Assembly (NCBI GenBank): GCA_014879865.1
Contig: JACSRG010000481.1
Span: 1 to 38,993, forward strand
Reading direction: 5' to 3'
Length of the DNA: 38,993 nt
Origin: Anaerolinea sp.
GTDB lineage: Bacteria; Chloroflexota; Anaerolineae; Aggregatilineales; Phototrophicaceae
The notes beneath the pieces were generated by a model, which saw only the letters and a program-made list of their open reading frames with translations, had not been told where the DNA came from and searched no databases. This document shows positions 2,055-32,179 of the stretch, in pieces. Numbering within the stretch: the stretch's first letter is position 1; each line of letters starts with the position of its first letter. A program made the translations under genes and the position numbers.

Positions 2055-3846
2055 TGGCTAGCTCCTTCTCAAGCTCAGTCTCGATTCGCACCTGCAAATC
2101 GTAGATCTGCTGGTAAATGCCCGGTTGGTTGACGAGCGTTTCGTGCGTGCCGCGCTGCACGATGCGCCCCTTGTCCAAGACAAGGATTTGATCGGCGTTC
2201 ATGATGCTCTGGATGCGATGCGCGATGATGAACGTCGTCCGTGCTTCCATCAACTCGTCCAGCGCCGCGCGGATGTTCGCTTCCGTCTCCGTATCGACCG
2301 ACGAGGTTGAGTCGTCGAGGATCAGGATGCGCGGGTTCTTCAACAGCGTGCGCGCAATCGCGACGCGCTGCTTTTGACCGCCCGACAGCGTGACACCGCG
2401 TTCACCGACAATCGTGTCGTAGCCTTCGGGGAACGCCGTGATCACCTCGTGGACATCCGCCGCCTTCGCCGCCGCGATCACCTCTGCCTCATCGACATGC
2501 CGCCCGACGCCGTAGGTGATGTTTTCGCGGATCGAGCGCGAGAACAGGAACGGCTCTTGCTCGACAATCCCGATGTTCGCGCGCAAGAACTGGCGCGAGA
2601 TCAAGCTCAACGGCACGCCGTCCACCGTGACGCGACCGCTCGTGTAATCATAGAAGCGCGGCAGCAGGTTGACCAGCGACGTTTTGCCCGACCCGGTCGA
2701 ACCGAGCAGCGCGACTGAAGTCCCCGCCTTGACCGTGAAGCTGATGTCTTTGAGGACTGCCTGTCCCGGTTCATACTCGAACGTGACGTTCTCGAAGGCG
2801 ATGTCGCCCTTGAGCGGCTGATCGAGCTTCGCCAGCCCGTCGGTGATCGGCTCACGATCTTCCTTCAAAATCTTCGCGACGCGCTCGTAGCTGACCAAGC
2901 CTTCCGATGCGTTGACGATGATACGACCCAAGCCGCGCATCGGTTCGATGATCCAGATGATCAAGCCGATGTAAGCGATGTACGTGCCGATGGACATCGT
3001 GCCATCCATGACCATGATCGCGCCGACGACGTAGCCCGAAAGCTGCTGTAAGCCGCTCATGATGTCGGTGATGGGCCAGTAGAGCGCGTGTCCCTTCATG
3101 AACACCTTACCGCGTTGGAAGTGTTCCCAGTTCTCGGTTTCAAACTTGTCGCGCTCGTAGTCCTGCCGCGCGAACGCCTTGACGACGCGCACGCCGGTCA
3201 GGTTTTCTTGCAGCGTCGCCGACAGCTTGCCTTCCTGCTCCTGATAGCGTTCGTATGCTTTCGACACGCGCTGGAAGAAGTACATCGACACCGCGCCGAT
3301 GAACGGCACGACGATCACCGAGAACAACGCCAACTGCCAGTTGAGCGCGAGCAGGGCGGTGAAGTTGATCGAGAACAGCAGCAGGATACGCCCTAAGCCA
3401 ATCGCCTGCTCGGAATAGAACCGCTGAATGTGGTTCACGTCCGAGGTCACGCGCTGGATGAGTTCCCCCGTCGAGTTTTTGCTGTGGAAGGTGAAGGTCA
3501 GGCGCTGCAAATGGTCGAAGAGGTAGTTGCGGAGACGCAGCACGATCCCTTCCGCCGTCTGTGCCGACCACCGACCACTCAAATACGTGAACACGCCTTC
3601 TACCCCCGCCATCACGATGAAGCTCAACGCGATCAACAACAGTGCATCCAGAATGTGATCGCGCAGCAGCACATCATCGATCAGGTATTGCAGCAGCAGG
3701 AGCGTCCCCGTTTTCGCCATCGCCGCGAGCGCCAGCGCGAAGATCGCCGCGAAGTACAAGCCGCGAAATCCGCTGAGCATCCGCCACAACCCGACGAGCC
3801 GGTTGGATGAGACTGAACTTTTGAGATCGAAATTTTGCTGAGACAA
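2047..3846 (-). CDS. ABC transporter, fused permease/ATP-binding protein (exporter subunit 1)
   Basis: ORF track gives 2047..3897; Walker A GSTGSGKT, LSGGQKQR, ILILDDSTS. Start re-assigned to TTG at 3846, preceded by AAGGAGG (3855-3861) at 8-nt spacing. Overlaps the next gene by 8 bp. Confidence 0.88.
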   Translation of the reverse strand: MSQQNFDLKSSVSSNRLVGLWRMLSGFRGLYFAAIFALALAAMAKTGTLLLLQYLIDDVLLRDHILDALLLIALSFIVMAGVEGVFTYLSGRWSAQTAEGIVLRLRNYLFDHLQRLTFTFHSKNSTGELIQRVTSDVNHIQRFYSEQAIGLGRILLLFSINFTALLALNWQLALFSVIVVPFIGAVSMYFFQRVSKAYERYQEQEGKLSATLQENLTGVRVVKAFARQDYERDKFETENWEHFQRGKVFMKGHALYWPITDIMSGLQQLSGYVVGAIMVMDGTMSIGTYIAYIGLIIWIIEPMRGLGRIIVNASEGLVSYERVAKILKEDREPITDGLAKLDQPLKGDIAFENVTFEYEPGQAVLKDISFTVKAGTSVALLGSTGSGKTSLVNLLPRFYDYTSGRVTVDGVPLSLISRQFLRANIGIVEQEPFLFSRSIRENITYGVGRHVDEAEVIAAAKAADVHEVITAFPEGYDTIVGERGVTLSGGQKQRVAIARTLLKNPRILILDDSTSSVDTETEANIRAALDELMEARTTFIIAHRIQSIMNADQILVLDKGRIVQRGTHETLVNQPGIYQQIYDLQVRIETELEKELANV

Positions 3847-3886
3847 CGATTGCGCCTCCTTATTCCATGAATCAAGCGCAAGAGTC

Positions 3887-3930
3887 ATTATATACATGGT
3901 TTCCCAGAATTTGGCAAGGGTTATTCTGGG
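3887..3930 (-). promoter_or_regulatory. promoter of ABC exporter operon with flanking inverted repeat
   Basis: Minus strand TTGCCA (3917-3912), 17 nt, TATATA (3894-3889; overlapping TATAAT 3892-3887). Inverted repeat CCCAGAAT (3903-3910)/ATTCTGGG (3923-3930) brackets the -35. Confidence 0.55.
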
Positions 3931-4040
3931 GGTTTAGAAATCAGGTCAGGTTATGAAGGGTCATGAGGGTTCATGGGTTCAATGATCGGCAGGGCGTTTC
4001 GGCTCATCGCTCTATGTCAGGCGATAGCTCAAGTGTGAAC

Positions 4041-4069
4041 TTGGATGTCGGCGCATGTGTCTCTACAAT
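4041..4069 (+). promoter_or_regulatory. sigma70-type promoter for GT39-like gene
   Basis: TTGGAT (4041-4046) - 17 nt - TACAAT (4064-4069), 30 nt upstream of ATG 4099. Confidence 0.55.
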
Positions 4070-4098
4070 ACAATACGCGCTAAAGGACAATTTGTTTC

Positions 4099-6045
4099 AT
4101 GAGAAGTATCGCTAACCTATTTTCCGAATTGCCTCTCTCACGTAAACGGGTAGGATTTCGTGTTTCCCTTCTGACCCTGCTCCTACTGCTGATCGTCGCC
4201 AGTCGTGCCTACCGGCTTGACGTGGATGTGCTGGATGTGCAAACCGACGAGTCGTGGTCAGTGTGGCAGACGTTCGGCAGTGTGAACGACATTCTGCGTT
4301 GGACGCCCTACGATTGGACACCCCTGTACTACCTGACGCTCGGCGCATGGCGCGAACTGACCAACCTCCATCCCGTGACTTTGCGCTGGCTGTCGGTGCT
4401 GGCATTCGCGGTCGGATGCAGCGCCATGTATCGCGTCGGACGGCGGTTGTACGGCGCGGGCGTCGTGCCGATGCTGGCGTATGCCGCCTTCGCCTACATG
4501 GTCTTCCTCAGCACGGAGATGCGCGGCTATGCCTTGCTGCTGGCGTTTTACCCGCTGGCGATCTGGTCGATGCTGCGCTACTTCCACCGCCCGACGCTGT
4601 CGCGCGCGCTGCCGCTGGGAATCCTGCTGGCGGCGATGTTCTACACCTCGCTGACGAGCGCCGCCGCTACCGGCGCACTGGTGCTGTTCAGCGCGTTTCT
4701 GTACGGCACGCGCATCTGGCGCTGGATCGTCCCGGCGGTGATCGCCGTCGTGCTCGCCCTGCCGGAAATCCTCAACAAGGCGGCGATTATCACCACGCGG
4801 ATGCAGGCGACGATCAACATCCCGCTGCTGCCGTTCGGCGAGGCGCTGGTCGATCTGTACGGCGCGCATACCGGCTACCCGCTGCTGATCTGGATCGGCT
4901 TGGCGGTGGTGGCGGGGGTGATGCTGGTGATAAACTTTGTACGGGTACGACGCACGTTCTCTAATAATACAAATCGCATTAAAGACCCGCTTATTGACCC
5001 CATCCCCTCCCCGAATTCGGGGAGGGGCGTAAACGGGAGTCTGCTTGCGCCTTCCCCTGAATTCGGGGGAAGGGAAGTTGGTATGCCACTTGAGCGCATC
5101 GCCCTCGGCTTGTTCGTGTGGGCGCTCATCCCGATTGCGCTGTACATCACCAACCCGACCTTCGGCTTCTTCAATCACCGTTACTCGTGGTGGGTGATGA
5201 TCGGCGTGGCGCTGTTCCTCGGTGCGGGCTTGAGCCGCCTGCCGCGCGTCGGTCAGGGGGCAGTCGCGCTGCTGTTGATCACGTTCGCCTTCGTGCCGAT
5301 CCCGCTGACCAAGTATCAGCTTGGCGATCCGCCGCTTGCCCCGGCGTTCGAGTGGCTGGCGGGCAAGGCGCGCCCCGACGATGCTGTGCTGATCGACCCC
5401 GCGTGCGGCTGCTGGTCGCCGGAACGCTTCGCCTACCTGACGCGCGTTTACTTCCCGATGGGCTTGCGCTTCGTCAGCGAACCGGGCGACGAGCAGCGGT
5501 TGTGGTACTTGACCGGGGCAGTCGGCGCGACCGAAAGCGTCGCCGCTGAGGTCAATCGGGGGCGCGTGGCGGGCGAGTTTTTCGGTCCGCCCGAAGCCTT
5601 GATCCGCGTGTATGAAGCGCCGCCCGATCCGGTCGGAGAAGTCTACAGCAATGGGATGCGTTTTCACGGCGCGGAGATCGCCGGGGCGAACGGCTTTCCG
5701 ATCTTCCACGAGGGCGAACCGCTCACGCTGCGCGTGTGGTGGACAACCGATCAACCGCTGCCACAAGATTACAGCATCGGCGTGTTCCTGTTTGACAGTG
5801 CTGGCAATCTCGTCTTACAGGAGGACAGCGCGCCGCGCACCACGCCGCCGCAAACGTCGATGTGGCAGACCGGGACAATCTACATGGAAGAGCGCACGCT
5901 CACTCTGCCGATCCCGTCCGGGCGCGGCGTGTATCGCCTGATGCTGGCGCTCTACTGGTACGGCGATCCGGTGCGCCTGACCGCGCCGGGAGTCGATGCG
6001 GATGGGCTGCGTTTCCTGACGAACGTCTACATATCGGCTTGGTAA
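4099..6045 (+). CDS. polytopic membrane glycosyltransferase-like protein (GT39/PMT-like)
   Basis: ORF 648 aa; N-terminal TM then LDVQTDESWSVWQ motif, many TM helices, soluble C-terminal beta-rich domain. Contains an in-frame repeat insert at about 5001-5077. Confidence 0.75.
   Translation: MRSIANLFSELPLSRKRVGFRVSLLTLLLLLIVASRAYRLDVDVLDVQTDESWSVWQTFGSVNDILRWTPYDWTPLYYLTLGAWRELTNLHPVTLRWLSVLAFAVGCSAMYRVGRRLYGAGVVPMLAYAAFAYMVFLSTEMRGYALLLAFYPLAIWSMLRYFHRPTLSRALPLGILLAAMFYTSLTSAAATGALVLFSAFLYGTRIWRWIVPAVIAVVLALPEILNKAAIITTRMQATINIPLLPFGEALVDLYGAHTGYPLLIWIGLAVVAGVMLVINFVRVRRTFSNNTNRIKDPLIDPIPSPNSGRGVNGSLLAPSPEFGGREVGMPLERIALGLFVWALIPIALYITNPTFGFFNHRYSWWVMIGVALFLGAGLSRLPRVGQGAVALLLITFAFVPIPLTKYQLGDPPLAPAFEWLAGKARPDDAVLIDPACGCWSPERFAYLTRVYFPMGLRFVSEPGDEQRLWYLTGAVGATESVAAEVNRGRVAGEFFGPPEALIRVYEAPPDPVGEVYSNGMRFHGAEIAGANGFPIFHEGEPLTLRVWWTTDQPLPQDYSIGVFLFDSAGNLVLQEDSAPRTTPPQTSMWQTGTIYMEERTLTLPIPSGRGVYRLMLALYWYGDPVRLTAPGVDADGLRFLTNVYISAW
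5004..5073. repeat. modular palindromic element, copy 1, inside a CDS
   Basis: CCCCTCCCCGAATTCGGGGAGGGG (5004-5027, perfect palindrome), centre CGTAAACGGGAGTCTGCTTGCG, then CCTTCCCCTGAATTCGGGGGAAGG (5050-5073, one mismatch). Confidence 0.85.
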
Positions 6046-6062
6046 GGTGCAAGATAAGACTC

Positions 6063-6130
6063 AACGCAAAGACGGTAAGGCGCAAAGAATGTAAGTGGAT
6101 CACACTTGGCGTCTTTGCGTTGCGCTCTTT
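6063..6130. repeat. intergenic hairpin of CGCAAAGA-type units, likely bidirectional terminator
   Basis: AACGCAAAGAC (6063-6073) pairs exactly with GTCTTTGCGTT (6111-6121); left arm continues as CGCAAAGA-CGGTAAGG-CGCAAAGA. Sits between convergent genes (stops at 6045 and 6134). Confidence 0.65.
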
Positions 6131-6133
6131 CTT

Positions 6134-7216
6134 TTATGCCGTTTGCGCGAACCACTTGATTTCGGGCAGGGCGCGGCGATCCTCCATCAAGATCAGATGG
6201 CTGTCGCCGAATTCGTGCCACAGGTAGCCTTCGCGCACGGCTTCGGCATAGCTCTCGCGGATCGCCTCCTGTCCGGCGATGGTGTAAAGCATGGCAAGGT
6301 GACTCGTGACCGGATCATGCAGCCCGGTGATCAGCCCATCGACCACGTTGACGCCGCGCTTCGGGTGGATGTACAGGCGCGTGAATCCGCGTGATGGCTC
6401 AACCTCATGCCCGTTCCACGCCGATTCGAGCGCGCGGACGACGGTCGTCCCAACGGCGATCACGCGCCGCCTTTCGTGGTTCGCCTGATTGACCAGCTTA
6501 GCGGTTCTGGCAGACACGAAATATGGTTCGGGGTAGAGCGGGTGATTCTCCACCACCTCGGTTTCGACTTCGAGGCTGCTCACGCCCGTGTGCAGCGTGA
6601 TCGGGGCAATCGTCACGCCGTTAGCGCGCAAGCTGTCCACCACGCGCCGCGTGAATGGATACGCCGCCGAGGGCATCTCCGCGCTGCCGGGGACAGCGGC
6701 AAAGACCGTCTGGTAGGTCGCCAGCGGGTAGCTCTCCTGCACATAGCCGTAGCGGATCGGCTTGCCGGTGCGTTCCATTGCCGCGCGCACATCACCGTCG
6801 ATCTGCGCGAACCACAGGCGCGGCAGACCGGGGTAGGGCGTGATCAAGCGTGCGGGCAGGTCGGCAATCGTGAGCATCATGCCCGCCGTGACCGGGAGCG
6901 GTCCGGGCTGCGCGCTGCTCCAGCGCGGCTCGATCAGCCACATGCCGTTCCCGAAATGTGTTGCCATGCTGACGACGAACGCGCCGAGATCGGCGTGGTG
7001 CGCGGGCAGGCTGGCGGGGAGCGTCGCGCTGTCATTGACCACCAACAGATCGCCGGGACGCAGATAATGCGCTAATTCGGTGAAGCGTGTATGGACGTGT
7101 CCGCGCTCGGTGCTGACCATCAGCCGCGCATGGTCACGCGGGACACCGCGCGCCTCGGCGGGCTGTGTCGCCTGCAAATCGAGCGGACGCTCGAAAATCA
7201 GTTCAGACCGTTTCAT
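6134..7216 (-). CDS. queA: S-adenosylmethionine:tRNA ribosyltransferase-isomerase (QueA family)
   Basis: LRPGDLLVVNDSATLPASL, ITLHTGVSSLEVE, SARTAKLVNQANHERRRVIAVGTTVVRALES. Start moved to ATG 7216 (MKRSELIFERPLDL), overlapping the upstream stop. Confidence 0.85.
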   Translation of the reverse strand: MKRSELIFERPLDLQATQPAEARGVPRDHARLMVSTERGHVHTRFTELAHYLRPGDLLVVNDSATLPASLPAHHADLGAFVVSMATHFGNGMWLIEPRWSSAQPGPLPVTAGMMLTIADLPARLITPYPGLPRLWFAQIDGDVRAAMERTGKPIRYGYVQESYPLATYQTVFAAVPGSAEMPSAAYPFTRRVVDSLRANGVTIAPITLHTGVSSLEVETEVVENHPLYPEPYFVSARTAKLVNQANHERRRVIAVGTTVVRALESAWNGHEVEPSRGFTRLYIHPKRGVNVVDGLITGLHDPVTSHLAMLYTIAGQEAIRESYAEAVREGYLWHEFGDSHLILMEDRRALPEIKWFAQTA

Positions 7217-7931
7217 TGACTGCCTCCCAGCGATCCGCTTGCGCGGCGTAGCGACCACCGCTCACCGCCATGCGATTTTGCCCGAACAGCCATGCCCAGA
7301 ACGGCACGGTGACATCCGGCAGCGGGCGATCCGAAATGTCCTCGCCGGGGAAAGCATCCTGATGCATCACCGTGCGCATATCGCCCGGATCGACGCTGAC
7401 CACGCTGACATTTTCGCCGCGTAGTTCGTTCGCCATCGTCAACGAGGCGAGATCGAGTGCCGCTTTGGTCATGCCGTAGCCGCCCCAGCCTTCATAGCCG
7501 CCTTTCGCCGCGTCGCTCGACAGATTGACGACAATCCCGCCGTTGGCTTTGAGCGCGGGCAATGCAAGCTGAGTCAGCGCGAGGGGCGCGATCACATTGA
7601 TCTTGAAGACGCGTTCCAGCGCGTCGAGCGGGTAATCCGCCAGCGCGGGCAGGGGCGACACGCCCAAATCCGACGCATTGTTGATCAGCACGGCGAGGTT
7701 TGCGCCCGCCGCGTCGATCACGGCTTGGCGGTGGGCGGCGTCGGCAACATCGCCGATGACCGTTTTGACCGTCACGCCGTAAGTGTTCAGCGAGCGGGCG
7801 ACGGCTTCAAGCGGTTCGGCATGACGGGCGGTCAGCACGATGTCATAACCTTGCCCCGCCAGAAAACGCGCCAGCACTTCGCCCAAGCCGCGACTCGCGC
7901 CGGTGATAATCGCCGTAGTTGTGTTAGCCAT
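7203..7931 (-). CDS. short-chain dehydrogenase/reductase
   Basis: TTAIITGASRGLGEVLARFLA nucleotide-binding motif; YGMTKAALDL catalytic motif. Confidence 0.88.
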   Translation of the reverse strand: MANTTTAIITGASRGLGEVLARFLAGQGYDIVLTARHAEPLEAVARSLNTYGVTVKTVIGDVADAAHRQAVIDAAGANLAVLINNASDLGVSPLPALADYPLDALERVFKINVIAPLALTQLALPALKANGGIVVNLSSDAAKGGYEGWGGYGMTKAALDLASLTMANELRGENVSVVSVDPGDMRTVMHQDAFPGEDISDRPLPDVTVPFWAWLFGQNRMAVSGGRYAAQADRWEAVNETV

Positions 7932-15166: not shown

Positions 15167-15196
15167 ACATACTAGACATGGCATTTGAGGGCAGCA

Positions 15197-16402
15197 ATGA
15201 CGACCCGACGTTTCACCGATCAGTTTCCGCCAAATCCTGACGAGCAGCCCCCAGCGAGCGAAAGACCCGCCGTACCTGCCAAACGCCCGCAGCCGATTCC
15301 CCAACCAGCACAGCCAAAACCGTCAGGAGCGCCTGCTCCGGCGAGTTCGAGCGCGCCGCGCGGCAATGCGCATCTCCCACGCACGCTGACACAGGTGCTC
15401 AATGAAGCAGATGAGCGCGTGACGCGCGGTGATCTAGTCGATTACGTCCCGCTGCCTACCGGGTTCGATCCGCTTGATGGGTTTATCGGGGGCGGTTTGC
15501 GCAAAACCGAACTGGTACTGCTTGGCGGCGCGCAGGGTATCGGCAAGACGATTGCCACGCTGCAAATCGCGCGGAACATCGCGCAGCGCCCGGATCAGTA
15601 CGTGTTCTACCTCTCCTACGAACACACCGAAACGCATCTGATGCACCGCCTGCTGTGTTTGGAAAGCATCAACCCGCCGGAGATCGACCTCAGCCGGGGG
15701 CTAAAGCTGCGCGACCTGTACCAGATCATCGTGGCGCAGCGCGCGAAAGAGTTCATGGGGCGCGAAGGCGGCGCGGGGTCGCTGCAAACGATTCTGCGCG
15801 ACAACCCCAAGACCGCGCCGGGGTTGAGCCGCATCGTTCGCTACGCCGACCGCATGATCCTCGTCAAGGCAAGCCCGGCAGTGACGACGCTGCGCTCGAT
15901 CAAGGAGATGACCGCGCGCCTGTGCGATGCGACCGGCGGCAACGTCGCCGTGTTCATCGACTACTTGCAGAAGATCGCCGTTCACCCGGAACGCCCACGC
16001 GACGAAAACGACAAGGTGACAATCATCGTCGAGGGATTGAAGGACATCGCCATGTCGCTTGACGTGCCGGTGTGGGCGATTGTCGCGGCGGATCGTGAAG
16101 GCTTGAAGAGCAAGCGCATTCACTTGTTTCACTTGCGCGGCAGCAGCGCGCTCGACTACGAGTCGGACATCGCGTTGATCATGAACAACAAGTACCAGAT
16201 CATGTCGAAAGACCACGCGGCGTTCAATCCGTATACCGCCAAGCAGTTCCGCGATTGGGTGGTGTGGACAATTGAGAAGAATCGCGCCGGTCGCGCGATG
16301 CAGGACATGGAATTTCAGCTACACGGTCAGCATTTCGCCTTCGACCCGCGCGGTCAAAAGGTGCAGCAGCAGTTAATCGACGACAAGATCATCGAAACAT
16401 AA
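15197..16402 (+). CDS. DnaB-like helicase C-terminal (RecA-fold) domain protein
   Basis: GGAQGIGKT Walker A, FIDYLQKI Walker B, LRGSSALDYESDIALIMN, IEKNRAGRAMQDMEFQL; Pro-rich N-terminus instead of a DnaB N domain. Confidence 0.8.
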   Translation: MTTRRFTDQFPPNPDEQPPASERPAVPAKRPQPIPQPAQPKPSGAPAPASSSAPRGNAHLPRTLTQVLNEADERVTRGDLVDYVPLPTGFDPLDGFIGGGLRKTELVLLGGAQGIGKTIATLQIARNIAQRPDQYVFYLSYEHTETHLMHRLLCLESINPPEIDLSRGLKLRDLYQIIVAQRAKEFMGREGGAGSLQTILRDNPKTAPGLSRIVRYADRMILVKASPAVTTLRSIKEMTARLCDATGGNVAVFIDYLQKIAVHPERPRDENDKVTIIVEGLKDIAMSLDVPVWAIVAADREGLKSKRIHLFHLRGSSALDYESDIALIMNNKYQIMSKDHAAFNPYTAKQFRDWVVWTIEKNRAGRAMQDMEFQLHGQHFAFDPRGQKVQQQLIDDKIIET

Positions 16403-17468: not shown

Positions 17469-18341
17469 CTAGCGCAAAATCAAATCGAGTTCCACTGCGC
17501 TGATGTTCAGCGTTCGCTTAAGATGATGCCACAGCGCGCGCGTGACAAGCTCGCGGAAGGCGATCACGACGGCAGCCGTGCTCGGCGCAATGATGATGGT
17601 CGCGCTGAAGTTCGCGCCGAAGCGGACGAGCAGCGACGGCAGAACATACAGCGCGATGACTGCGGCGAGCAGGTAGGTCAGCAGCGTGAGCAGCGCCCAC
17701 GCACCGAGCGCGAAGCCGCGTACATTCCGGCTGTTGACCGCATACGCCGGGATCACCATGCCGAGCACCGCCGCGATCACCGGCATGTTCAGGAAGTCGT
17801 AGAACAGGAACAGCGCGAACGAGATGGCGTCGATTAGCCAGAAGTGGACGGCGCGCTGCCCGGTCAGCGGGTAGGCGACCGCGCCGAACAGGAACGGCGA
17901 CGCGACAATGCCGAGCATGAAGATCGCTTGCAGCGGCAGCCGCCAGCGGCGCTGCGCCTCGAAAAACGCCGTGCAGTGAATCCAGTGGATGCCCATCCGT
18001 CCGAGCGGCAGCGCGCTCATCAGGTCGTAGGTATGCAGTTCGTGATTGCGCGCAATCGTCCCGCTGACGGTGGTCACGATCAGCAGGCTGAACGCCATAT
18101 TCGCCGCCAGCGCGATCAGCGGGGAGGGGAAGAACAGCCCGATCACCGCGATGTTGATCACCGGGATGAACGCCAGCAGCCCGATGAAGCGGATCACCTG
18201 CGTGACATGGGGCGTTTGCGGGCGCGGGCGCGCGGCGATGCGCTGGTGGAGCAGCGTAAGCAGGCGTTCGTAGCCTCGCCAGATGCGCGGCTCGCGCTTG
18301 AGCGGCTCGTTCAACGTGCGGTACAGTCGCCAAGTTAGCAT
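17469..18341 (-). CDS. ABC-2-like polytopic membrane protein A3
   Basis: Multiple TM helices; VSGTIARNHELHTYDLMSALPLG; C-terminal FRELVTRALWHHLKRTLN shared with A2. Start ATG 18341 overlaps the upstream stop. Confidence 0.7.
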   Translation of the reverse strand: MLTWRLYRTLNEPLKREPRIWRGYERLLTLLHQRIAARPRPQTPHVTQVIRFIGLLAFIPVINIAVIGLFFPSPLIALAANMAFSLLIVTTVSGTIARNHELHTYDLMSALPLGRMGIHWIHCTAFFEAQRRWRLPLQAIFMLGIVASPFLFGAVAYPLTGQRAVHFWLIDAISFALFLFYDFLNMPVIAAVLGMVIPAYAVNSRNVRGFALGAWALLTLLTYLLAAVIALYVLPSLLVRFGANFSATIIIAPSTAAVVIAFRELVTRALWHHLKRTLNISAVELDLILR

Positions 18342-19234
18342 AGGCGCTCCAATTCTACGGATGTTGCGTTGAGCGCGGCGGGCAAGCGCCGCCACAACAG
18401 GCGGATGGTCAGTTCGCGGAAACTGCCGAGGACGACGAGCGCCGCCAGCGGCAGAGTCAAGGCGCTTAGCGCGTCGCTAATGCCGAAAAGCTGGAAGGAT
18501 GCCGGGACGATCACCAGCAGCACCAACAGCAGCAGGAGATAGCCGGTGAGCTGAAGCAGGATGAACACCGCCGCCGTGATGAAACGGGCGTTGGCGGTCG
18601 AAGTCGTGTGCGCGGGGACGGTCATGCTCAACAACCCCGCCGTCACCTGTGCCGCGTAGTTATCCAGCAGAATCACGATGCCGGCGGCGGCGGTGGCGAT
18701 GAGCCAGTGGAAGAATGAGAAAGCAGCATTTGCGCCGAACAGCGCTGCGATGGCAAAGATCGACGAAATGATCCCGATTACGCTCATGAGGATGGCGAGA
18801 TCGTGCAGCAGACGATTTTGCAGCATCCCGCTCAGGGTGAATGACCAGTGCAGCCCGACGATCCCGGTCGGCAGCGTGCCGAGCAGATCATAGCGTCCAG
18901 CTTGATGTTCGCGGGCGATGCGTCCGCTGATGCTCAATGTCAGCGCCAGTCCGTAAAGCGTGTTGAGCAGCGGCACGAGGACGGGCGACAGGGTGACGAC
19001 GAGGAACAGCGACACGATGAAGATCGGCGCGCCGAACAGGATCGCGGCAATAGGCAGCAGCAGCATCCCGGCGCTGCGGGTAATCGAGAACCAGAGGGAA
19101 CGGCGCGGAAAACCACTGCCTACCTCGGGCTTGCCGCGCCGGTAATGCCGCGCCAATTGCAGAAATGCGCGATCCGGCACCGCTCGTGGTCGCAGCGGAT
19201 TGTTGAGCGCCCGCCGCAAACGCCATGTGAGCAT
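18335..19234 (-). CDS. ABC-2-like polytopic membrane protein A2
   Basis: ISGRIAREHQAGRYDLLGTLPTG; FRELTIRLLWRRLPAALN; starts directly after the A1 stop (TGAATG). Confidence 0.7.
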   Translation of the reverse strand: MLTWRLRRALNNPLRPRAVPDRAFLQLARHYRRGKPEVGSGFPRRSLWFSITRSAGMLLLPIAAILFGAPIFIVSLFLVVTLSPVLVPLLNTLYGLALTLSISGRIAREHQAGRYDLLGTLPTGIVGLHWSFTLSGMLQNRLLHDLAILMSVIGIISSIFAIAALFGANAAFSFFHWLIATAAAGIVILLDNYAAQVTAGLLSMTVPAHTTSTANARFITAAVFILLQLTGYLLLLLVLLVIVPASFQLFGISDALSALTLPLAALVVLGSFRELTIRLLWRRLPAALNATSVELERLC

Positions 19235-20158
19235 TCAGGCAGCCCCCGACAATACCAGACGGAACTCGGCGGCATCGAGGTGCAGTCGTGCGCTCAGCGC
19301 CCGCGCCAGTGCCACCGCGATAGCGGCGCGAATTCCGACGAACATTCCGAGCAGCACGAACGGAAAGGCGATCAGTTCCAGCACCGGGGCGATGTTCAGG
19401 CGGGCGGAGAGGCTCGGCACGATGAGAAACGCGCCGAGCCACATCAACCCATAGGCGCAACCTTGCAGCAGCAGGAAGCTGATCAGCGCCCATGCCCGCG
19501 CTTCGGCACGGCTGCGGACGATCAGCGGCACGAGCAAACCGATCAGGTTGGCGTCGGCGAGGGAATACACGTCGTCTACGTAGAACGCCAGCGCAATCAG
19601 CAGCAGTATGACGATCAAGAACAGCAGCGAACAATTCAATGGCTCCGCGGGAAGGATAAACGGGAAACGCGCCACGTAGCTCCCGGTCATCAGCGGCGCG
19701 ACAAACAGCGTGGTGGTGAGCAGACCGCTCCGCACAGACCAGACGCGCCGCATGGGTCTGCCGCTATAGGGATGTCTCAGGGCTTGAGTCGCGCTTGCCA
19801 ATGCCCACAGCGCCGCGAACAAGCCGTCCGGCGTGACTGCGAGCAGATCGAGCATCTGATTTGCCCGTTCGTCCGCAATCGCATCGGCGACGCGCAGCGT
19901 GACGCCCATCCCGACGACCGTCGCGTAGAGCAGGACGCCGAACGGGACGATAATCGCGGCGGCATAGCAGATGACCCCATAGAAATCGGGAAGCGCTCCG
20001 ACGAGAGCGCAGCCAATGCCCCCTAGCGCGATCCAGCCCCACAACGGCAGGGCGAAAGCGGGTTTGTGCTCCGCTTCGCGCTGCGCCTGCGCGCGCCGAA
20101 ACAGGGGGTGCTCCAGCGGCGGCATGAACAGCGCACGCCACAAGCGAAAGGCGATCAT
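19235..20158 (-). CDS. ABC-2-like polytopic membrane protein A1
   Basis: MIAFRLWRALFMPPLEHPLF start; VADAIADERANQMLDLLAVTPDG; ATGA overlap with the upstream gene. Confidence 0.68.
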   Translation of the reverse strand: MIAFRLWRALFMPPLEHPLFRRAQAQREAEHKPAFALPLWGWIALGGIGCALVGALPDFYGVICYAAAIIVPFGVLLYATVVGMGVTLRVADAIADERANQMLDLLAVTPDGLFAALWALASATQALRHPYSGRPMRRVWSVRSGLLTTTLFVAPLMTGSYVARFPFILPAEPLNCSLLFLIVILLLIALAFYVDDVYSLADANLIGLLVPLIVRSRAEARAWALISFLLLQGCAYGLMWLGAFLIVPSLSARLNIAPVLELIAFPFVLLGMFVGIRAAIAVALARALSARLHLDAAEFRLVLSGAA

Positions 20159-21432
20159 CCCGGCGGCAGCCCCCACGCGACCACGTCCGGCGCGCCGAAC
20201 GCGGGGAACAAACCTTCGCTCAACGCGGTGTAGACGCCCGTTTCGACCTCCAGTGCCAGCAGCAAATAGCTCCGTCCATCCTCTCTCACATCACCGCCGA
20301 AGCCGAGGTAGCGTCCATCCGGCGACCATGACAGGCGCGGCGGATTCGGCGTGGCGTCCGGCGTGCTGTAGCCGCAGTACGCGGTGATCTCGTTCGTCGA
20401 GAGGTCGAGGACGTGAATCATAGCATTTCCTGTGTTGGCGAGTGGGTCAGCGCCCGTGACTTCGGTCACCCAGAAAGCGATCCGCTGGCTATCGGGCGAC
20501 CATGCCAGATCGCCGACGGCGATCCCATTGATGCGCGCCGCGCCATACGCCGCCGCGAAGTTTGTCCACTGAACGGGTTCCATCATACCCGGTTGAATGC
20601 CGAAGAGTTCACCAGTGATACGCGCATCGTCGCCGACAGGTTCAACGTAGGCAAGCCATGTGCCATCCGGCGACCAGTGCTGCGTGTTGTAATAGGCGCG
20701 GTCTTCGCCGAGCAGCACCCGCTCACGCGGTTCGGCAAGGTTGACCAGTGTGCGCGAGAAGGTGTCGCCGTCCTGCTGGAGCAGCACCGCGTAGCGTCCA
20801 CCGGGCTGCACGGAGACGACGCCGGGAACGGTCAGGTATTCGCGCACATCCGCGTCGAGCGGGCGCAGATAGGCGGAACGGGCAGGCGTCCAGATCAAGT
20901 ACATCTCGTCCGACCACCATTCGACATCGGCGGCGTAGGCGGTGATCAAGGTGCGTTCTGTTCCGTTTAAGCGCATCCGGTTATAGGCGTTGGTCGCGTC
21001 GTTGAAGTAGGTGATCCAGCGCGCGTCGGGCGAGAGGCGGCAGTTGGTCGTACACGGGTTGGAATCGGGCAGGGGGTAACGCCGGTCGGTCGCTACATCA
21101 TAAACCCAGAGCGCGGTGCTGTCGAAATACGTCAAGATGATGCCGTTGGCGTCGAATTCGGCGGTGCGCGCTTGAATCCCTACGGGCGGACACACCCGGA
21201 TGATGTCCCCGTCCATGACGGTGTCGGCATGGGCGACGGCGCTCAAACATATGATCATCATGAGACAAATCCACGCACGAGCGACCCTGCGTCCGTTCAC
21301 GAAACCCCCATCCCAACCTTCCCCCGAATCCGGGGGAAGGCGCAAACACGAGTCTGCTTGCGCCCCTCCTGTCCAAGCGAAGCTTGGCATTCGGGGAGGG
21401 GTCAAGAAGCAAGAGATCAACTTGTTATTCAT
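20155..21432 (-). CDS. exported PD40/TolB-like beta-propeller protein
   Basis: Repeats HWSPDGTWLAYV, LAWSPDSQRIAFW, LSWSPDGRYLGFG; signal-like RRVARAWICLMMIICLSAVAHA. ATG 21432 overlaps the upstream stop as ATGA; alternative start GTG 21300. Confidence 0.75.
   Translation of the reverse strand: MNNKLISCFLTPPRMPSFAWTGGAQADSCLRLPPDSGEGWDGGFVNGRRVARAWICLMMIICLSAVAHADTVMDGDIIRVCPPVGIQARTAEFDANGIILTYFDSTALWVYDVATDRRYPLPDSNPCTTNCRLSPDARWITYFNDATNAYNRMRLNGTERTLITAYAADVEWWSDEMYLIWTPARSAYLRPLDADVREYLTVPGVVSVQPGGRYAVLLQQDGDTFSRTLVNLAEPRERVLLGEDRAYYNTQHWSPDGTWLAYVEPVGDDARITGELFGIQPGMMEPVQWTNFAAAYGAARINGIAVGDLAWSPDSQRIAFWVTEVTGADPLANTGNAMIHVLDLSTNEITAYCGYSTPDATPNPPRLSWSPDGRYLGFGGDVREDGRSYLLLALEVETGVYTALSEGLFPAFGAPDVVAWGLPPG
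21305..21402. repeat. modular palindromic element, copy 2
   Basis: CCTTCCCCCGAATCCGGGGGAAGG (21317-21340), centre CGCAAACACGAGTCTGCTTGCG, then CCCCTCC...GGGGAGGGG with nested CCAAGC-gaa-GCTTGG (21373-21387). Confidence 0.85.
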
Positions 21433-22217
21433 CCGTATAACTTCTTCCGCAAGGTTTCCTCCGGCGTGGGCGGTTTTTCCGTCCATTCGACCCGCCAGAC
21501 GTGAATCTGACTGAGGCGCTCATCTGCGCCGCCGTCGGCAACGTACAGCCGATCTCCGTGCAGCAGGCAGTCCATCGGGCGATGGAGCAGATTATCCGCG
21601 AGATCGGTCAGCATGGCGCTCGTCGGGCGTTCTTCCTCCACCAGCAGGTCGAAGAAGTGGGCGGCGTAGATCACGCGCGTGTCGTAGTCGTAGATTTCGC
21701 CGTCGGCGTCGGTTTGCGGTGCAGGGAGCGCGTAGGCGAAGCGAATCCGGCGGCAGATCAGGAATAGGTTCGGGTGGATCAATTCGGTTTCGGCGAGGAC
21801 ATAGCTTTCTGCGATGCCGATCAACTGCGGCAGGTCGAGCTTAAGCCGCTGCGCCAGCGCGACTTTATCGGCGATGGACAGCGGCAGCACAAGATCGCCG
21901 ACCCGTTCGGGGAGGCGCTGCCCGCGATGGCGCGCCCCGGCGTAATTCAGCGCCATGCAGTGCCAGCCCGCCTGCGGCTTGATCACGTCGTCAGGCAGTG
22001 CCAGCGGCACGACGCTGGTGTTCATCCCGTTCGACTCGTCAACCGATGCAATTAGCGTTCCGTCCGCTGCGAAGGCGTGCTGCGCCAACCAGCAGTCCTC
22101 CGCATAGATTTCTTCGACGTACAGAGCGCCGTCCGGCGTCACGCCGAGAATGCTGCAATCGCCGTTGTGATGAAGAGGGCGCGATGTTTCATAATGAAAG
22201 ATCGGCGGATGCATCAA
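21429..22217 (-). CDS. uncharacterised 262-aa protein, beta-propeller-like C-terminus
   Basis: Long ORF at the head of the coupled operon; ...MDCLLHGDRLYVADGGADERLSQIHVWRV... No family firmly recognised. Confidence 0.65.
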   Translation of the reverse strand: MMHPPIFHYETSRPLHHNGDCSILGVTPDGALYVEEIYAEDCWLAQHAFAADGTLIASVDESNGMNTSVVPLALPDDVIKPQAGWHCMALNYAGARHRGQRLPERVGDLVLPLSIADKVALAQRLKLDLPQLIGIAESYVLAETELIHPNLFLICRRIRFAYALPAPQTDADGEIYDYDTRVIYAAHFFDLLVEEERPTSAMLTDLADNLLHRPMDCLLHGDRLYVADGGADERLSQIHVWRVEWTEKPPTPEETLRKKLYG

Positions 22218-22305
22218 GAAACCCTTTCAAGTCCTTTGTCGAACATCCTGCGTTAGCATGTTATACTACAGGCGTTCTCTTTTATTATGGTTGGGGCTAA
22301 GTTCA

Positions 22306-22962
22306 ATGTCAGAACGGCTAGCCGACAATGTCATTATAACTGATCCACAGGCTGGGGGTGCGCGCGAAAAAGGGGAGGGTGTCGAAGCCCGCAAGGTGAC
22401 GCAAACCTCGGTTATGCCGCCGCTGCGCCTGACTGGATTGAACGTTCCGCCTGCCGCCGAAACAGGGTTGATCAACGCGGTCGTCCTGTCCGGCGAAGGA
22501 GCAGACCACGATGATCGGCAAGATGCTTCGCGCACCACTGCCGAAACGCAAGGTGTCCTCGAAGTCACCCAAGGACAGCGCCCGACCGTCTTGATTATCG
22601 AAGATACGGCGGAGCTGGCGGAAATCCTACAGGTGACGCTGGAACACATGGGCATGATCACGGCACACGAAAGTCACGGCGGACGCGCTTTCGTGCGTTT
22701 CAACGCGATGATGCCCGATATTGTGCTGCTGGATATTGGCTTGCCGGACATCACCGGCTGGAAAGTCCTTGAGAGCATCAAAGACCGCCAGCGCGAGTCG
22801 GGCGGCAGGATGCCCATCGTCATCGTCATCACCGCGTATGGCGACCCCGCCAACCGGTTGGTTGGCAAGCTGCACGGCGTGCACAACTACCTGATCAAGC
22901 CGTTCACACCGGACGAAGTGGTGCAGGTGGTGCGGAACGCGCTCAGCAGCGCATCCGGTTGA
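22306..22962 (+). CDS. receiver-domain protein with about 85-aa N-terminal extension
   Basis: TVLIIEDTAELAEILQ, DIVLLDIGLPDITGWKVLE, NYLIKPFTPDEVV; no output domain. Start ATG 22306 (MSERLADNV). Confidence 0.82.
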   Translation: MSERLADNVIITDPQAGGAREKGEGVEARKVTQTSVMPPLRLTGLNVPPAAETGLINAVVLSGEGADHDDRQDASRTTAETQGVLEVTQGQRPTVLIIEDTAELAEILQVTLEHMGMITAHESHGGRAFVRFNAMMPDIVLLDIGLPDITGWKVLESIKDRQRESGGRMPIVIVITAYGDPANRLVGKLHGVHNYLIKPFTPDEVVQVVRNALSSASG

Positions 22963-23951
22963 TGCTGTTTTCCCGCAAACGAGCAGCGCGCTTCGGAGTG
23001 CTGCTCGTCCTCGTGTTGATCTCCCTGCTTGCCCTACAATCGAGCCTGATTCGCCCCGTTAATGAGGAAAGGGTGATGGAGGCACTGTATCATATTGAGC
23101 GACTCGCGCTGCGTGATGGCTGGACGCCGGAACTGGCGCGCCGCGCGGGTGACTTATGGCGCGATTCTGGCGATCTCATACGGGCGGCTGCCTACTGGGA
23201 AAACGCGGGCGATGATCCGGCAGTCGTCCGGGCACTCGCGGAAGCCTATGTCGAACTGGGCGAGTGGTCGCGCGCGGCGGATACGCTGCTGCGTCTGCTG
23301 GAACAGCAGCCTGAGGACAGTTGGGCGAACTTCCAGCTCGGCGTGATTTTCGCCGCCGTCGCGCCGGAACGCGCGCTGCCGTATCTGCAAGCGGCGCTGC
23401 CTGCTTACGGTGAGACGCTCGCCCCGGTGATCGAAGGGGCGCGGCGCGGCGATCCGCTGCGGGTCGGGATGGCGCTGGCAGAGGCGCGCCTGTGGGCATA
23501 TGCCGAACTCGCGTTTGAGCAAGTGCCTTCGGCACGCGGTTATGCCTACAGCGGTTTCGTGCGCGATCAACAGGGGAAGGACGGCGGCGCGCTGATTCAG
23601 GCGGCAGTCGCACTGGAACCGGATGATGCGCAGGTGCGTCTATTGGAAGGGCTGCACTACCGCACGATAGGCGACCGCCGCGCCAGCCTCGACGCAATCA
23701 TCACGGCGGCGGCGCTCGATCCGCTTAACCCGGCGATCTATGCGGAGCTGGGCGCAGCGTACGAACTGGTCGGCGATGTCGTGACCGCGCGCCGCTGGTT
23801 GGAGTATGCGGTCACGCTGTCAGGTAACGATCCGAAGTTTCAGGCGATTTTGGAGGCGTTCGATGCCGACCAAGCAGACCTGCTGGCTGCCGTAGGGTTC
23901 ACCGATGAACCTACTTTCGAGAGTACTCCCACCCCAAACCCTCTGGACTGA
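22959..23951 (+). CDS. membrane-anchored TPR-repeat protein
   Basis: N-terminal TM; alpha-helical repeats such as AYVELGEWSRAADTLLRLLEQQPEDSWANFQLGVIFA; start overlaps the RR stop. Confidence 0.8.
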   Translation: MMLFSRKRAARFGVLLVLVLISLLALQSSLIRPVNEERVMEALYHIERLALRDGWTPELARRAGDLWRDSGDLIRAAAYWENAGDDPAVVRALAEAYVELGEWSRAADTLLRLLEQQPEDSWANFQLGVIFAAVAPERALPYLQAALPAYGETLAPVIEGARRGDPLRVGMALAEARLWAYAELAFEQVPSARGYAYSGFVRDQQGKDGGALIQAAVALEPDDAQVRLLEGLHYRTIGDRRASLDAIITAAALDPLNPAIYAELGAAYELVGDVVTARRWLEYAVTLSGNDPKFQAILEAFDADQADLLAAVGFTDEPTFESTPTPNPLD

Positions 23952-24810
23952 TTCCCTCTTTCGCGCGCAGGCACGCGCCGTCCACTGGGGCGGCAGTTGG
24001 TGGCGGATGCGCGACCGCACCGTCGCATGGTTTTCTCAATCGCTCGTCACCGTCGTCGGCATCTGGTTGGGGCTGGCGGCGCTGCTGTGGCTGCTGCCCG
24101 TCGAACGGGATGCGCAGACGTGGCTGCGTGACTTCACCCGCATCTACTGGCTGCTGTGCATGGCGTTCGGCTTGACCTTCGACATCGCCATTGACTTCAA
24201 CAGCCTGAGCGCGGCGCTCGGCGTGATCAACGGCGCGGTGAATGCGGGGCGCTACGATTTGATCCGCTTGTCCCTCATGCGCCCGGCGCAGTTCGTCGCC
24301 AAACAGTACGCGGTCGCGCAGGTGCGCGGTTGGTTCGCCACCGCGCGCGTCGTCTGGCTGCGGCTGGCATTCGTGATCTTCGGCGTGTTCGCGCTGGCGC
24401 TGGAAATCATCACCCCGAACACAGGCGCATCCTCGACGTTCTTCGCCTATCCCTATATGATGGTGGGGATCGGCGCGATCATCTACGTGCTGGAGCCGTA
24501 CTGGCGCATGAAAGCCGTGACGGCGCTCGGTGTGGCGCTGTCGGCGCGGATGCTAAATGGCGTCAGCACGACGCTGGCGGCAGGCTTCGCGCTGCTGGCG
24601 TTCTGGCTGGCGCAGGGAATTTTCATCGTCGCGCTGGCGTTCGTGCTGTCGTTTTCGCTTGTGCTGGTATTCGCCGACGAATTCGCGCTGATCGTCTGCT
24701 TTCCGTTTCTGGTAGCGGTTGCCGGCGGGACGATCTACGGGTTCTATTCGTTCGTGCAGACGGCAAGTTTGCGACACGCCGCATGGCGGCTTCTGCTCAT
24801 GCATGATTGA
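23905..24810 (+). CDS. ABC-2-like polytopic membrane protein B1
   Basis: LLSRVLPPQTLWTDSLFRAQAR; NAGRYDLIRLSLMRPAQFVAKQYA; EPYWRMKAVTALGVALSAR; overlaps TPR gene by 47 nt. Confidence 0.7.
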   Translation: MNLLSRVLPPQTLWTDSLFRAQARAVHWGGSWWRMRDRTVAWFSQSLVTVVGIWLGLAALLWLLPVERDAQTWLRDFTRIYWLLCMAFGLTFDIAIDFNSLSAALGVINGAVNAGRYDLIRLSLMRPAQFVAKQYAVAQVRGWFATARVVWLRLAFVIFGVFALALEIITPNTGASSTFFAYPYMMVGIGAIIYVLEPYWRMKAVTALGVALSARMLNGVSTTLAAGFALLAFWLAQGIFIVALAFVLSFSLVLVFADEFALIVCFPFLVAVAGGTIYGFYSFVQTASLRHAAWRLLLMHD

Positions 24811-24822
24811 GGATTATGCTTC

Positions 24823-25746
24823 ATGTTCGATCCACTGGCACGTTTACTGCCCCCGCCAACGCTGTGGGATAATCCGCTGTTTCGCACCGACGCCCGCACC
24901 ATTCGTTTCGGTTCGTCATGGCGACTGCTCCGGCGGCGAACGTTTCGCTGGGGCATTCAGATGCTCGTCGTCCTCGCGATCTGCTTTGGGCTGGCGCTGG
25001 CGAATGAAGTCCTGATGCTCAACCCGAACAGCTATAGTTACGGCTACTGGCGAAACAATTTCCTCGGCAACTTCCTTGCGTTCGCGGTGCTCGGCTCCAT
25101 CGGGTTGAACGTGATCCTCGACTTTGTGGCGGTTTCGGCGTCGCTCGGCACGATCAGCAGTGATTTCACGGAGAACCGCGCCGATCTGATCCGCTTGACC
25201 CTGATCCGCCCGACACAGATCGTCGCCGCCAAGCGCGAGTTGGCGCGGGTGCGTGTTTTTCGCATGACGGCGCGCATCATGTGGCTGCGCCTGTGGATCG
25301 TCGTGATGGCGCTTGCCGCGCTGGCGTATCTGTACTTCGAGAACATGCAGAACACAGCGCCAGTCACGCCGGAGGTTTTCATCGGCACAGGGCTGATCAT
25401 CCTGCTAACCTGCGCCACATATATCATCGAACCGTACTGGCGCGCACAGGCGATCACGGCGGCAGGGGTGGCGGTATCGGCGCGGACGCGGCACGGTATC
25501 AGCGCGACCTTGAACGGAGGCTTCACGCTGATCGCTTTCTGGATCGCGCAGGGCTTGATCATCATGGTGCTGCTGTTTCTCGTACAAGTCACGGCGTTCC
25601 TGTACATCCCCGATCCGATCATCATTATCGGGATGCTGTTTCTGTTCTGGACGATCATCACCGTCGTGATCTATGTCTTTTACGCCGCAGTGGCGCGCAA
25701 CAGCCTGTATCAAGCCGCGTACCGGCTGGCGACCTTAGATAATTGA
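24823..25746 (+). CDS. ABC-2-like polytopic membrane protein B2
   Basis: LARLLPPPTLWDNPLFRTDAR; ENRADLIRLTLIRPTQIVAAKRE; EPYWRAQAITAAGVAVSAR; clear paralog of B1. Confidence 0.72.
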   Translation: MFDPLARLLPPPTLWDNPLFRTDARTIRFGSSWRLLRRRTFRWGIQMLVVLAICFGLALANEVLMLNPNSYSYGYWRNNFLGNFLAFAVLGSIGLNVILDFVAVSASLGTISSDFTENRADLIRLTLIRPTQIVAAKRELARVRVFRMTARIMWLRLWIVVMALAALAYLYFENMQNTAPVTPEVFIGTGLIILLTCATYIIEPYWRAQAITAAGVAVSARTRHGISATLNGGFTLIAFWIAQGLIIMVLLFLVQVTAFLYIPDPIIIIGMLFLFWTIITVVIYVFYAAVARNSLYQAAYRLATLDN

Positions 25747-25785
25747 TCTTGTGTTACAATTCGCATTGGACAACCCAAGAGGGTA

Positions 25786-26553
25786 ATGGCAATGGATACT
25801 ACCGCTCCGCGTACCACCGCGTTGAGAACCTTGTTGATCATCGGCGTGCTGATCCTCGCCTTAGCGGGGCTGATTCAACTGAACGCAGCAGCGGCGAACT
25901 GGCATTACATCACGACGGGCAGCGCGGGCGATCTGCTGTACGCGGCAGCATTCGACGGGCTGCAAGACGAGTGGGAGCAGTATAACGAACGGCGCAGCGC
26001 CGTGATTGATGGCGGCGTGATCCGCTTGACGAATAATGAAGTCAACAACGGCAACTACTCGGTGACGAAGGCGCGCTTCGCCGATTTCGACCTCGCCGTA
26101 ACGGGCAGCGCGGTCGCGGGACCGGAAAACAACGGCTACGGCGTGATCTACCGCCTGCAAGACCGGAGCAATTACTACACTTTCATGGTCAGCAGCGACG
26201 GCTATTATCAGGTGACGCGGGTGGTCAACGGCGATGTAACCGAACTCAGCACATGGATCGAGTCGCCGGTCGTCAACATGGGGATCGGCGCGGTCAACCG
26301 TCTGCGGGTGGTCGCGCGCGGCGACCAGTTCGAGTTTTATGTCAACGAGCAGCGGGTGCAGGTGTGTGTCCCCAACAACCCTGCCGCGCAAAGCATGTAT
26401 ATGATGGATACCTGTATTGATGGGCAGATGCTCGACACGCTGACGGACGCCTCTATCGCACAGGGTCAGATTGGCGTCGTGATCCAGACAATTGAAGGCG
26501 CGGACGCGGGCGTAAGTGTGGAGTTTGATAACCTCATCGTGATGGGGTCGTAA
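25786..26553 (+). CDS. membrane-anchored LamG/DUF1080-like (concanavalin-type) domain protein
   Basis: N-terminal TM, then GVIYRLQDRSNYYTFMVSSDGYYQVTRVVNGD ... NRLRVVARGDQFEFYVNEQRV. Confidence 0.7.
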   Translation: MAMDTTAPRTTALRTLLIIGVLILALAGLIQLNAAAANWHYITTGSAGDLLYAAAFDGLQDEWEQYNERRSAVIDGGVIRLTNNEVNNGNYSVTKARFADFDLAVTGSAVAGPENNGYGVIYRLQDRSNYYTFMVSSDGYYQVTRVVNGDVTELSTWIESPVVNMGIGAVNRLRVVARGDQFEFYVNEQRVQVCVPNNPAAQSMYMMDTCIDGQMLDTLTDASIAQGQIGVVIQTIEGADAGVSVEFDNLIVMGS

Positions 26554-31224: not shown

Positions 31225-31663
31225 CATACAGCACAAGATGATCGACGCGCTGGTAGGGACGTCGCGCATCAACCCGGATGATTTCGCCTACAAGACGAGC
31301 ACGAATCGCGTGAAGAGCTTGAGCTACGCGCTGGCAGGCTGGATATACATGCTCCGGCGGCAGAAGAACACACGGATTCAGGCGTTTGCCAGCATTTTTG
31401 TATTGGGGCTGGCGGCGTGGCTCGGCGTCGAACCGATCAGTTGGGCAATTCTCATCCTCACCGTCACGATGGTGTGGATGGCAGAGTTCATCAACGCAGC
31501 GGTCGAAGCCGCGATTGATCTTTCGACCAGCGAGTACCACCCGATGGCGAAGGTCGGCAAAGATGTCGCCTCGGCGGCGGTGCTGCTGGGCGCGGTCGCG
31601 TCGGTGGTGATCGGGCTAATCATCTTGCTGCCGCCGCTGCTGACCAAACTAGGAGTAGGGTAG
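31211..31663 (+). CDS. diacylglycerol/undecaprenol kinase family protein, copy 1
   Basis: AEFINAAVEAAIDLSTSEYHPMAKVGKDVASAAVLLGA; TM helices. Confidence 0.87.
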   Translation: MTKTDIQHKMIDALVGTSRINPDDFAYKTSTNRVKSLSYALAGWIYMLRRQKNTRIQAFASIFVLGLAAWLGVEPISWAILILTVTMVWMAEFINAAVEAAIDLSTSEYHPMAKVGKDVASAAVLLGAVASVVIGLIILLPPLLTKLGVG

Positions 31664-31675
31664 AGGGGACACTAT

Positions 31676-32179
31676 TTGAGCGATCAGCCAACGCCTGACA
31701 ATGATGCGACGCAAGCTGAAGTCGAAAAGAAAGATGTGCTGCGGACACCGGACGGTCAAGAGATCGACCTCGGCATCACCGGTACGATGAAACTTGACCC
31801 GCCGGGACGCAAGTCGAACCCGAACCGTTTGGCGAGTGTGAAATACGCGGTTGCGGGGCTGCTCTACGTCCTGACGCACGAGCAGAGCATCAAGCTGGCG
31901 ACGATTGTCACGGCAATTGTGATCGTGATCGGCTTGTGGCTGCAAATCAACGTGCTGAGCTGGGCGCTGCTAACGTTCGCTATCGGTGGCGTATGGGTCA
32001 CGGAGTGCTTGAACACGGCGATTGAAGCGGCAATCGACTTGGGGACGAGCGATCCGCATCCGCTGGCGAAGATCGGCAAGGATGTCGCTTCGACCGCCGC
32101 GCTCGTGAGTTCGATAGTGTTCGTCGTGATTGTAGTGCTGATCCTGCTGCCGCGTTTGCTTGATCGCATCGCCGGGTAG
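31676..32179 (+). CDS. diacylglycerol/undecaprenol kinase family protein, copy 2
   Basis: TECLNTAIEAAIDLGTSDPHPLAKIGKDVASTAALVSS; about 45-aa N-terminal extension; TTG start. Confidence 0.85.
   Translation: MSDQPTPDNDATQAEVEKKDVLRTPDGQEIDLGITGTMKLDPPGRKSNPNRLASVKYAVAGLLYVLTHEQSIKLATIVTAIVIVIGLWLQINVLSWALLTFAIGGVWVTECLNTAIEAAIDLGTSDPHPLAKIGKDVASTAALVSSIVFVVIVVLILLPRLLDRIAG

Follow-up and report, generated by a model that had tools for sequence, protein, structure and literature searches.

Five membrane proteins, A1-A3 and B1-B2, encoded in two divergent gene sets of a Chloroflexota genome, fall within the ABC-2 permease fold or close to it, an assignment supported by four lines of evidence: predicted structural models, their matches to NosY, profile links to ABC-2 families, and a coupling segment. 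The preferred reading, to which we assign a probability of roughly 0.47, is that A and B are divergent, NosY/GldF-like ABC-2-fold membrane proteins, which would be energised by an ABC ATPase in trans and would operate with surface partners.

The window, i.e. the whole stretch of 38,993 nucleotides that was analysed, is a contig of a 6.4-Mb metagenome-assembled genome (MAG) made of 937 contigs. An earlier note on this DNA had listed ten open reading frames (ORFs) in the locus, and all ten are present, at or near the positions and on the strands it had assigned. The minus strand carries the genes for membrane proteins A3 (17469..18341, motif LHTYDLMSALPLG), A2 (18335..19234, motif AGRYDLLGTLPTG) and A1 (19235..20158, motif ANQMLDLLAVTPDG), for a secreted PD40 beta-propeller with a Sec-type signal (20155..21261; Pfam DPPIV_N, 9e-6, and PD40, 1.4e-5; 41-58% identity in 18 relatives) and for a 262-aa protein with no predicted TM segment (21429..22217; 36-56% identity in 14 relatives). 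On the plus strand are found a receiver-only response regulator (RR) with a variable N-terminal region (22258..22962; Response_reg, 1.2e-18), a TPR protein with an N-terminal TM segment, whose repeats probably lie outside the membrane (22959..23951; TPR_11, 7e-10), both block-conserved, the membrane proteins B1 (23905..24810, motif AGRYDLIRLSLMRP) and B2 (24823..25746, motif ENRADLIRLTLIRP), and a membrane-anchored LamG/concanavalin-like protein (25786..26553; PF06439, E 7.6e-9; mean identity in relatives 45%). These Pfam matches uphold the PD40, receiver, TPR and LamG assignments of the note, the LamG-like domain corresponding to 3keto-disac_hyd. Three of the gene junctions it had described, A1/PD40 (ATGA), A1/A2 (abutting, TGAATG) and A2/A3 (a 7-nt overlap), are seen in the sequence, and the RR and TPR genes overlap by 4 nt. 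As also claimed, no protein with Walker A or LSGGQ motifs is encoded among the locus genes, between LipA and MtaB; the nearest ABC ATPases in the window are a fused ABCB-type exporter pair (237-3780). A DnaB-C/KaiC-like RecA-type ATPase (15185-16402) adjoins LipA here and in most block copies, and a tandem pair of prokaryotic diacylglycerol kinase genes is located 3' of YbeY (31238-32179).

A fourth junction, an ATGA between the 262-aa and PD40 genes, is not real: the ORF reads through a structured repeat, about 100 bp long, that is dispersed in the genome. This DNA (about 21301-21402, to which no strand is assigned), lying outside the conserved locus, has 43 matches in the same genome, several of them at contig ends, and folds as single-stranded DNA with a z score of -3.9. 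Since the first 64-70 or so residues of the long PD40 ORF have no counterpart in the 18 relatives, and their DNA coincides with the repeat, the conserved PD40 start is probably near 21261; insertion of the repeat between the two genes created a false ORF extension. The 262-aa protein finds no match in Pfam, NCBIfam or PDB and belongs to no known family. Comparison with its 14 relatives highlights 19 invariant residues (LNFAGxRHRGxRxPER, GLAESYVLAEA), and its gene is found in about half of the loci.

The five membrane proteins had been described as paralogous. Within each set this is borne out by BLAST (A2/A3, 30% identity, E 3e-36; A1/A2, E 6e-12; B1/B2, 39% identity, E 8e-64), A1 giving in addition a profile match at E 5e-69 and A3 belonging to the A-family alignment. 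Between A and B, in contrast, pairwise BLAST gives no signal, and the relationship is seen by profile only (hhalign probability 94.5, E 7.7e-8, with the coupling motif in register), the comparison having been made with separate alignments and no B sequences in the A set. None of the five matches any Pfam or NCBIfam model, the curated ABC2 cut-off not being reached, or any PDB entry by sequence or HMM. A Pfam scan and a PDB sequence-profile search of all members of the A alignment returned nothing usable; for the B members they returned a single sub-threshold match, to ABC2_membrane_3. Members of two further groups, C and D, give sub-threshold Pfam matches to ABC2_membrane_2/4 (1.1e-4, 6.8e-5) and GldF (5.6e-4). 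Profile-profile probabilities are 98.4 for B-C, 97.9 for A-D, 95.1 for D-B, 94.5 for A-B and 63.8 for A-C; C or D reach up to 57-67 against ATPase-linked ABC-2 clusters, while the negative controls, clusters not recognised as ABC-2, do not exceed 2.3. The B profile matches PF12679 permeases (E 8.5e-5) and a permease beside a DrrA-type ATPase (E 6e-4). The similarity of A to recognised ABC-2 families is only indirect, via B, C and D, and, judged from these profiles, it is group D that bridges A to them.

Structural models predicted by AF2 for A2 (pLDDT 85.1, pTM 0.81) and B1 (pLDDT 90.1, pTM 0.88) feature an N-terminal amphipathic helix or region and six TM helices, with the cytoplasmic coupling helix formed at the motif by short helices that connect TM2 to TM3 (107-113 and 116-121 in B1). 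When the models were compared to PDB by Foldseek, the top six matches of A2 were NosY chains (best E 0.019, probability 1.00), as were all top ten matches of B1 (best E 0.029; 7o0y_E, TMt 0.58), and the following ones were mainly the ABC-2 proteins ABCG, ABCA and Wzm. Because the E-values are modest (0.02-0.07, with TM-scores of 0.3-0.6), the fold call does not rest on Foldseek alone. The ABC-2-like character proposed in the earlier note is backed jointly by the AF2 models, Foldseek, the profile chain and the coupling motif, and no unrelated family turned up in the structure and profile checks, NosY being the best PDB fold match for the models of A2 and B1.

The mid-protein motif, noticed earlier for its resemblance to the ABC-2 coupling segment, does align in register with the canonical clusters. 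The aligned segments read EEDRGTLDLLLSTP in the canonical clusters, SIxREKxxQTWDLLVLTG in C, GRWDLLRLT in B and IARERRxGxYDLLxxTPxG in A, so that R-E-x-x-x-G-x-Y-D-L-L-x-x-x-P of A and G-R-W-D-L-L of B align with canonical E-E-x-x-G-T-L-D-x-L-L-S-T-P, and both families were counted as carrying the ABC-2 coupling segment, E-x-x-x-G-T-x-[DE]-L-L-x-x-P. This segment, with its shared core G-x-[YW]-D-L-L, is a conservation peak in both A and B, which is what continued docking of a nucleotide-binding domain would predict. Polar intramembrane residues are also conserved (D191, Q228, R273 and E274 in A; D97, R153, E197, R201 and Q237 in B); they are family-specific and fall outside the canonical motif. 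By hhalign, the two families align at two of these positions, one acidic and in TM4 (D191 in A, E197 in B), the other a glutamine in TM5 (Q228 in A, Q237 in B).

A PD40 search of genome contigs resulted in 55 loci, nearly all from Aggregatilineales/Anaerolineae (Chloroflexota) MAGs. The common block consists, in order, of a DnaB-like gene in the forward direction, of LipA, zero to six A genes, PD40 and the 262-aa gene in the reverse direction, and of RR, TPR, zero to three B genes, LamG, MtaB, YqeY, 7TM-HD and YbeY, again forward. The two divergent halves are kept together in dozens of MAGs, in agreement with their earlier treatment as one locus, and this synteny of the whole block indicates that the locus is more than a chance arrangement. 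None of the 27 blocks that extend in full from LipA to MtaB/YqeY contains an ABC ATPase, in line with the earlier observation on the window; A is present in 21 of them and B in 12, as counted by a hand-made gene caller known to have missed one further B (in L209/L048). Block contigs also occur in two records labelled Bacteroidetes and Pleurocapsa minor (L181, L201); these contigs are probably of Chloroflexota origin, the assemblies being mislabelled or contaminated.

Nine genomes have no A in the block, and searching them with the A alignment, which does detect A in other genomes, found no A anywhere else. Two of the nine (L178, L208) also have no B, yet PD40, RR, TPR and LamG are retained. 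A and B are hence accessory genes added to a propeller/RR/TPR/LamG core, which weakens the idea of an indispensable scaffold. In the 249 genomes of the class that were searched, A is nearly restricted to one family, which contributes seven of the eight positive genomes; the eighth is a weak match in another family of the same order. The nearest neighbour of 82 out of 90 A proteins in a tree lies in another genome, and the A paralogs are thus of old origin, not products of recent duplication. Conservation within the block is lowest for A and B, whose mean identity is 24% and 28%, respectively, against 38-50% for the rest. In two loci (L197, L219) the block borders Wzz, BY-kinase-like, sugar nucleotide and glycosyltransferase genes, L197 featuring a 224-aa two-TM protein at the usual A position, and in L199/L065 a glycosyltransferase gene lies inside the block: these neighbours point weakly to a polysaccharide link.

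Related proteins are found outside the block as well. In four genomes of the A-bearing family, A copies lie 8-36 bp behind DppF, at the 3' end of complete Dpp/Opp importer operons (L077, L079, L348; also L351), and another follows a sugar-type importer (L350). Group D comprises L352 and L353; in the latter, from another family of the order, SBP_bac_5, OppB, OppC, an ABC-2-like D protein and a 482-aa WD40 propeller are encoded in a row (350-7339). Group C (L319-L327, L329, L330) is formed by orphan ABC-2-like proteins of about 340 aa, often encoded beside an M3 peptidase gene and mostly without an adjacent ATPase. As propellers adjoin both the L353 copy and C copies (L326, L330), the combination of a propeller with an orphan ABC-2-like protein is a repeated pairing. 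Off-locus B copies were seen in L067 and L069, where their neighbours are a GNAT-like protein, a receiver protein and a 919-aa GAF hybrid histidine kinase. A and B belong to a larger set, including groups C and D, encoded without an adjacent cognate ATPase.

A motor was also sought elsewhere in the genomes. The genome of the window encodes 132 ABC ATPase domains; the small ATPases inspected that lack an adjacent membrane protein are LolD/MacB-like, MalK-like, SufC-like or contig-edge cases. In two near-complete genomes of few contigs that carry the locus (G022, G004), each of the best NatA/CcmA-like ATPases is accompanied by a permease encoded next to it. Among the best candidates of these three genomes, no dedicated orphan ABC-2-class ATPase was found, which argues against such an enzyme, not against the borrowing of one. 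Close to distant PD40 copies (L220), ABC ATPases resembling TM-fused ABCB-type exporters are encoded; these were rejected as partners, as was an ATPase near B copies in L060, encoded on the opposite strand. Literature searches on orphan ABC-2 permeases returned nothing.

If energised in trans, A and B proteins would assemble in the membrane as homo- or hetero-dimers, and these would dock, via the retained coupling segment, an ABC ATPase encoded elsewhere in the genome. Force or substrate might then be passed to the secreted PD40 propeller and to the anchored TPR and LamG-like proteins, with receiver-type signalling possibly controlling the system; the LamG domain and the occasional polysaccharide neighbours hint at a role of the surface proteins in glycan or envelope handling. 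An ATPase in trans is favoured by the conservation of the docking segment and by the precedent of shared ATPases (MsmK, FhuC/IsdF), and the A copies directly behind DppF in importer operons also count for it. The lack of a dedicated orphan ATPase, the non-canonical polar TM residues and the modest Foldseek scores count against it, and a whole set without ATPases is unusual for ABC-2 permeases. Nearly as likely is that the ABC-2 fold has here lost its motor and that A and B serve the propeller/TPR/LamG complex passively, as membrane scaffold, channel or anchor; a shared ATPase and an ATPase-free scaffold were the two possibilities offered in the earlier note. This would account for the 27 complete blocks devoid of an ATPase, for the missing orphan ABC-2-class enzyme among those inspected in three genomes and for block A and B and most C copies having no adjacent ATPase of their own, and the polar intramembrane residues suggest a repurposed interior; yet the coupling segment, which ought to have relaxed in that case, ranks among the best-conserved parts, and the loss of A/B from loci where the surface genes stay is odd for a scaffold.

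Possible too, though we put it forward tentatively, is a lineage-specific ABC-2-fold family independent of ABC ATPases, whose members would be variable hetero-oligomeric membrane parts of a propeller/TPR/LamG machine and would have retained the coupling helix to engage a new partner. That the helix is kept specifically for a non-ABC cytosolic partner of the locus, such as the receiver or the 262-aa protein, seems unlikely: almost all blocks do encode a cytosolic receiver protein, and in two genomes B copies have a receiver and a hybrid histidine kinase nearby, but neither candidate tracks the membrane proteins, since the receiver persists without A and B (L178, L208) and the 262-aa gene is absent from many A-bearing loci. 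Highly improbable, finally, is an unrelated six-TM family resembling ABC-2 by convergence. Although no membrane protein of the window has a sequence match in Pfam, NCBIfam or PDB, and Foldseek E-values stay above 0.001, NosY comes first for both independent models, the profile chain is graded and accompanied by negative controls, the motif is in true register and group D provides a bridge.

ABC permeases normally occur with their ATPase. The A/B set, fast-evolving, endowed with the fold and the coupling motif, without a motor of its own and tied to extracellular beta-propellers, provides a natural setting in which to ask if the ABC-2 membrane fold can function with no nucleotide-binding domain, or with a borrowed one. 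Envelope biology in this little-studied lineage of Chloroflexota also gains several unannotated families, namely groups A, B, C and D and that of the 262-aa protein.

Among known systems, permeases energised in trans by an ATPase not their own, as proposed for A/B, are exemplified by those served by MsmK of Streptococcus suis, an ATPase shared among ABC systems (PMC4519317), and by IsdF of S. aureus, on whose coupling helix the shared ATPase FhuC docks (PMC10147376); these are, however, importers with a known borrowed ATPase, while for A/B no such partner was found among the candidates inspected. The Dpp/Opp operons that carry a homologous A protein directly behind DppF (L077, L079, L348, L351) encode a complete importer, with two permeases and two ATPases of its own, unlike the window locus, which has none and encodes no cognate ATPase with its permeases, as complete ABC transporters do. 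GldF and the ABC2_membrane_2, _3 and _4 families (PF12679, PF12698, PF12730) share with A/B the coupling motif and profile links, strongest via groups C and D, but canonical ABC2_membrane members in these genomes adjoin ATPases, and A1-A3 and B1-B2 fall under no Pfam or NCBIfam model. NosY is encoded with the ATPase NosF and the beta-helix protein NosD. The block differs from NosDFY in having no ABC ATPase and a PD40 propeller as extracellular partner, so that neither NosF nor NosD has its equivalent there, and the sequence similarity of NosY to A/B is undetectable by HMM against PDB; nevertheless, NosY is the best PDB fold match of A2 and B1, has like them six TM helices with a TM2-TM3 coupling helix, and works with an extracytoplasmic partner protein, a further likeness to the locus described here.
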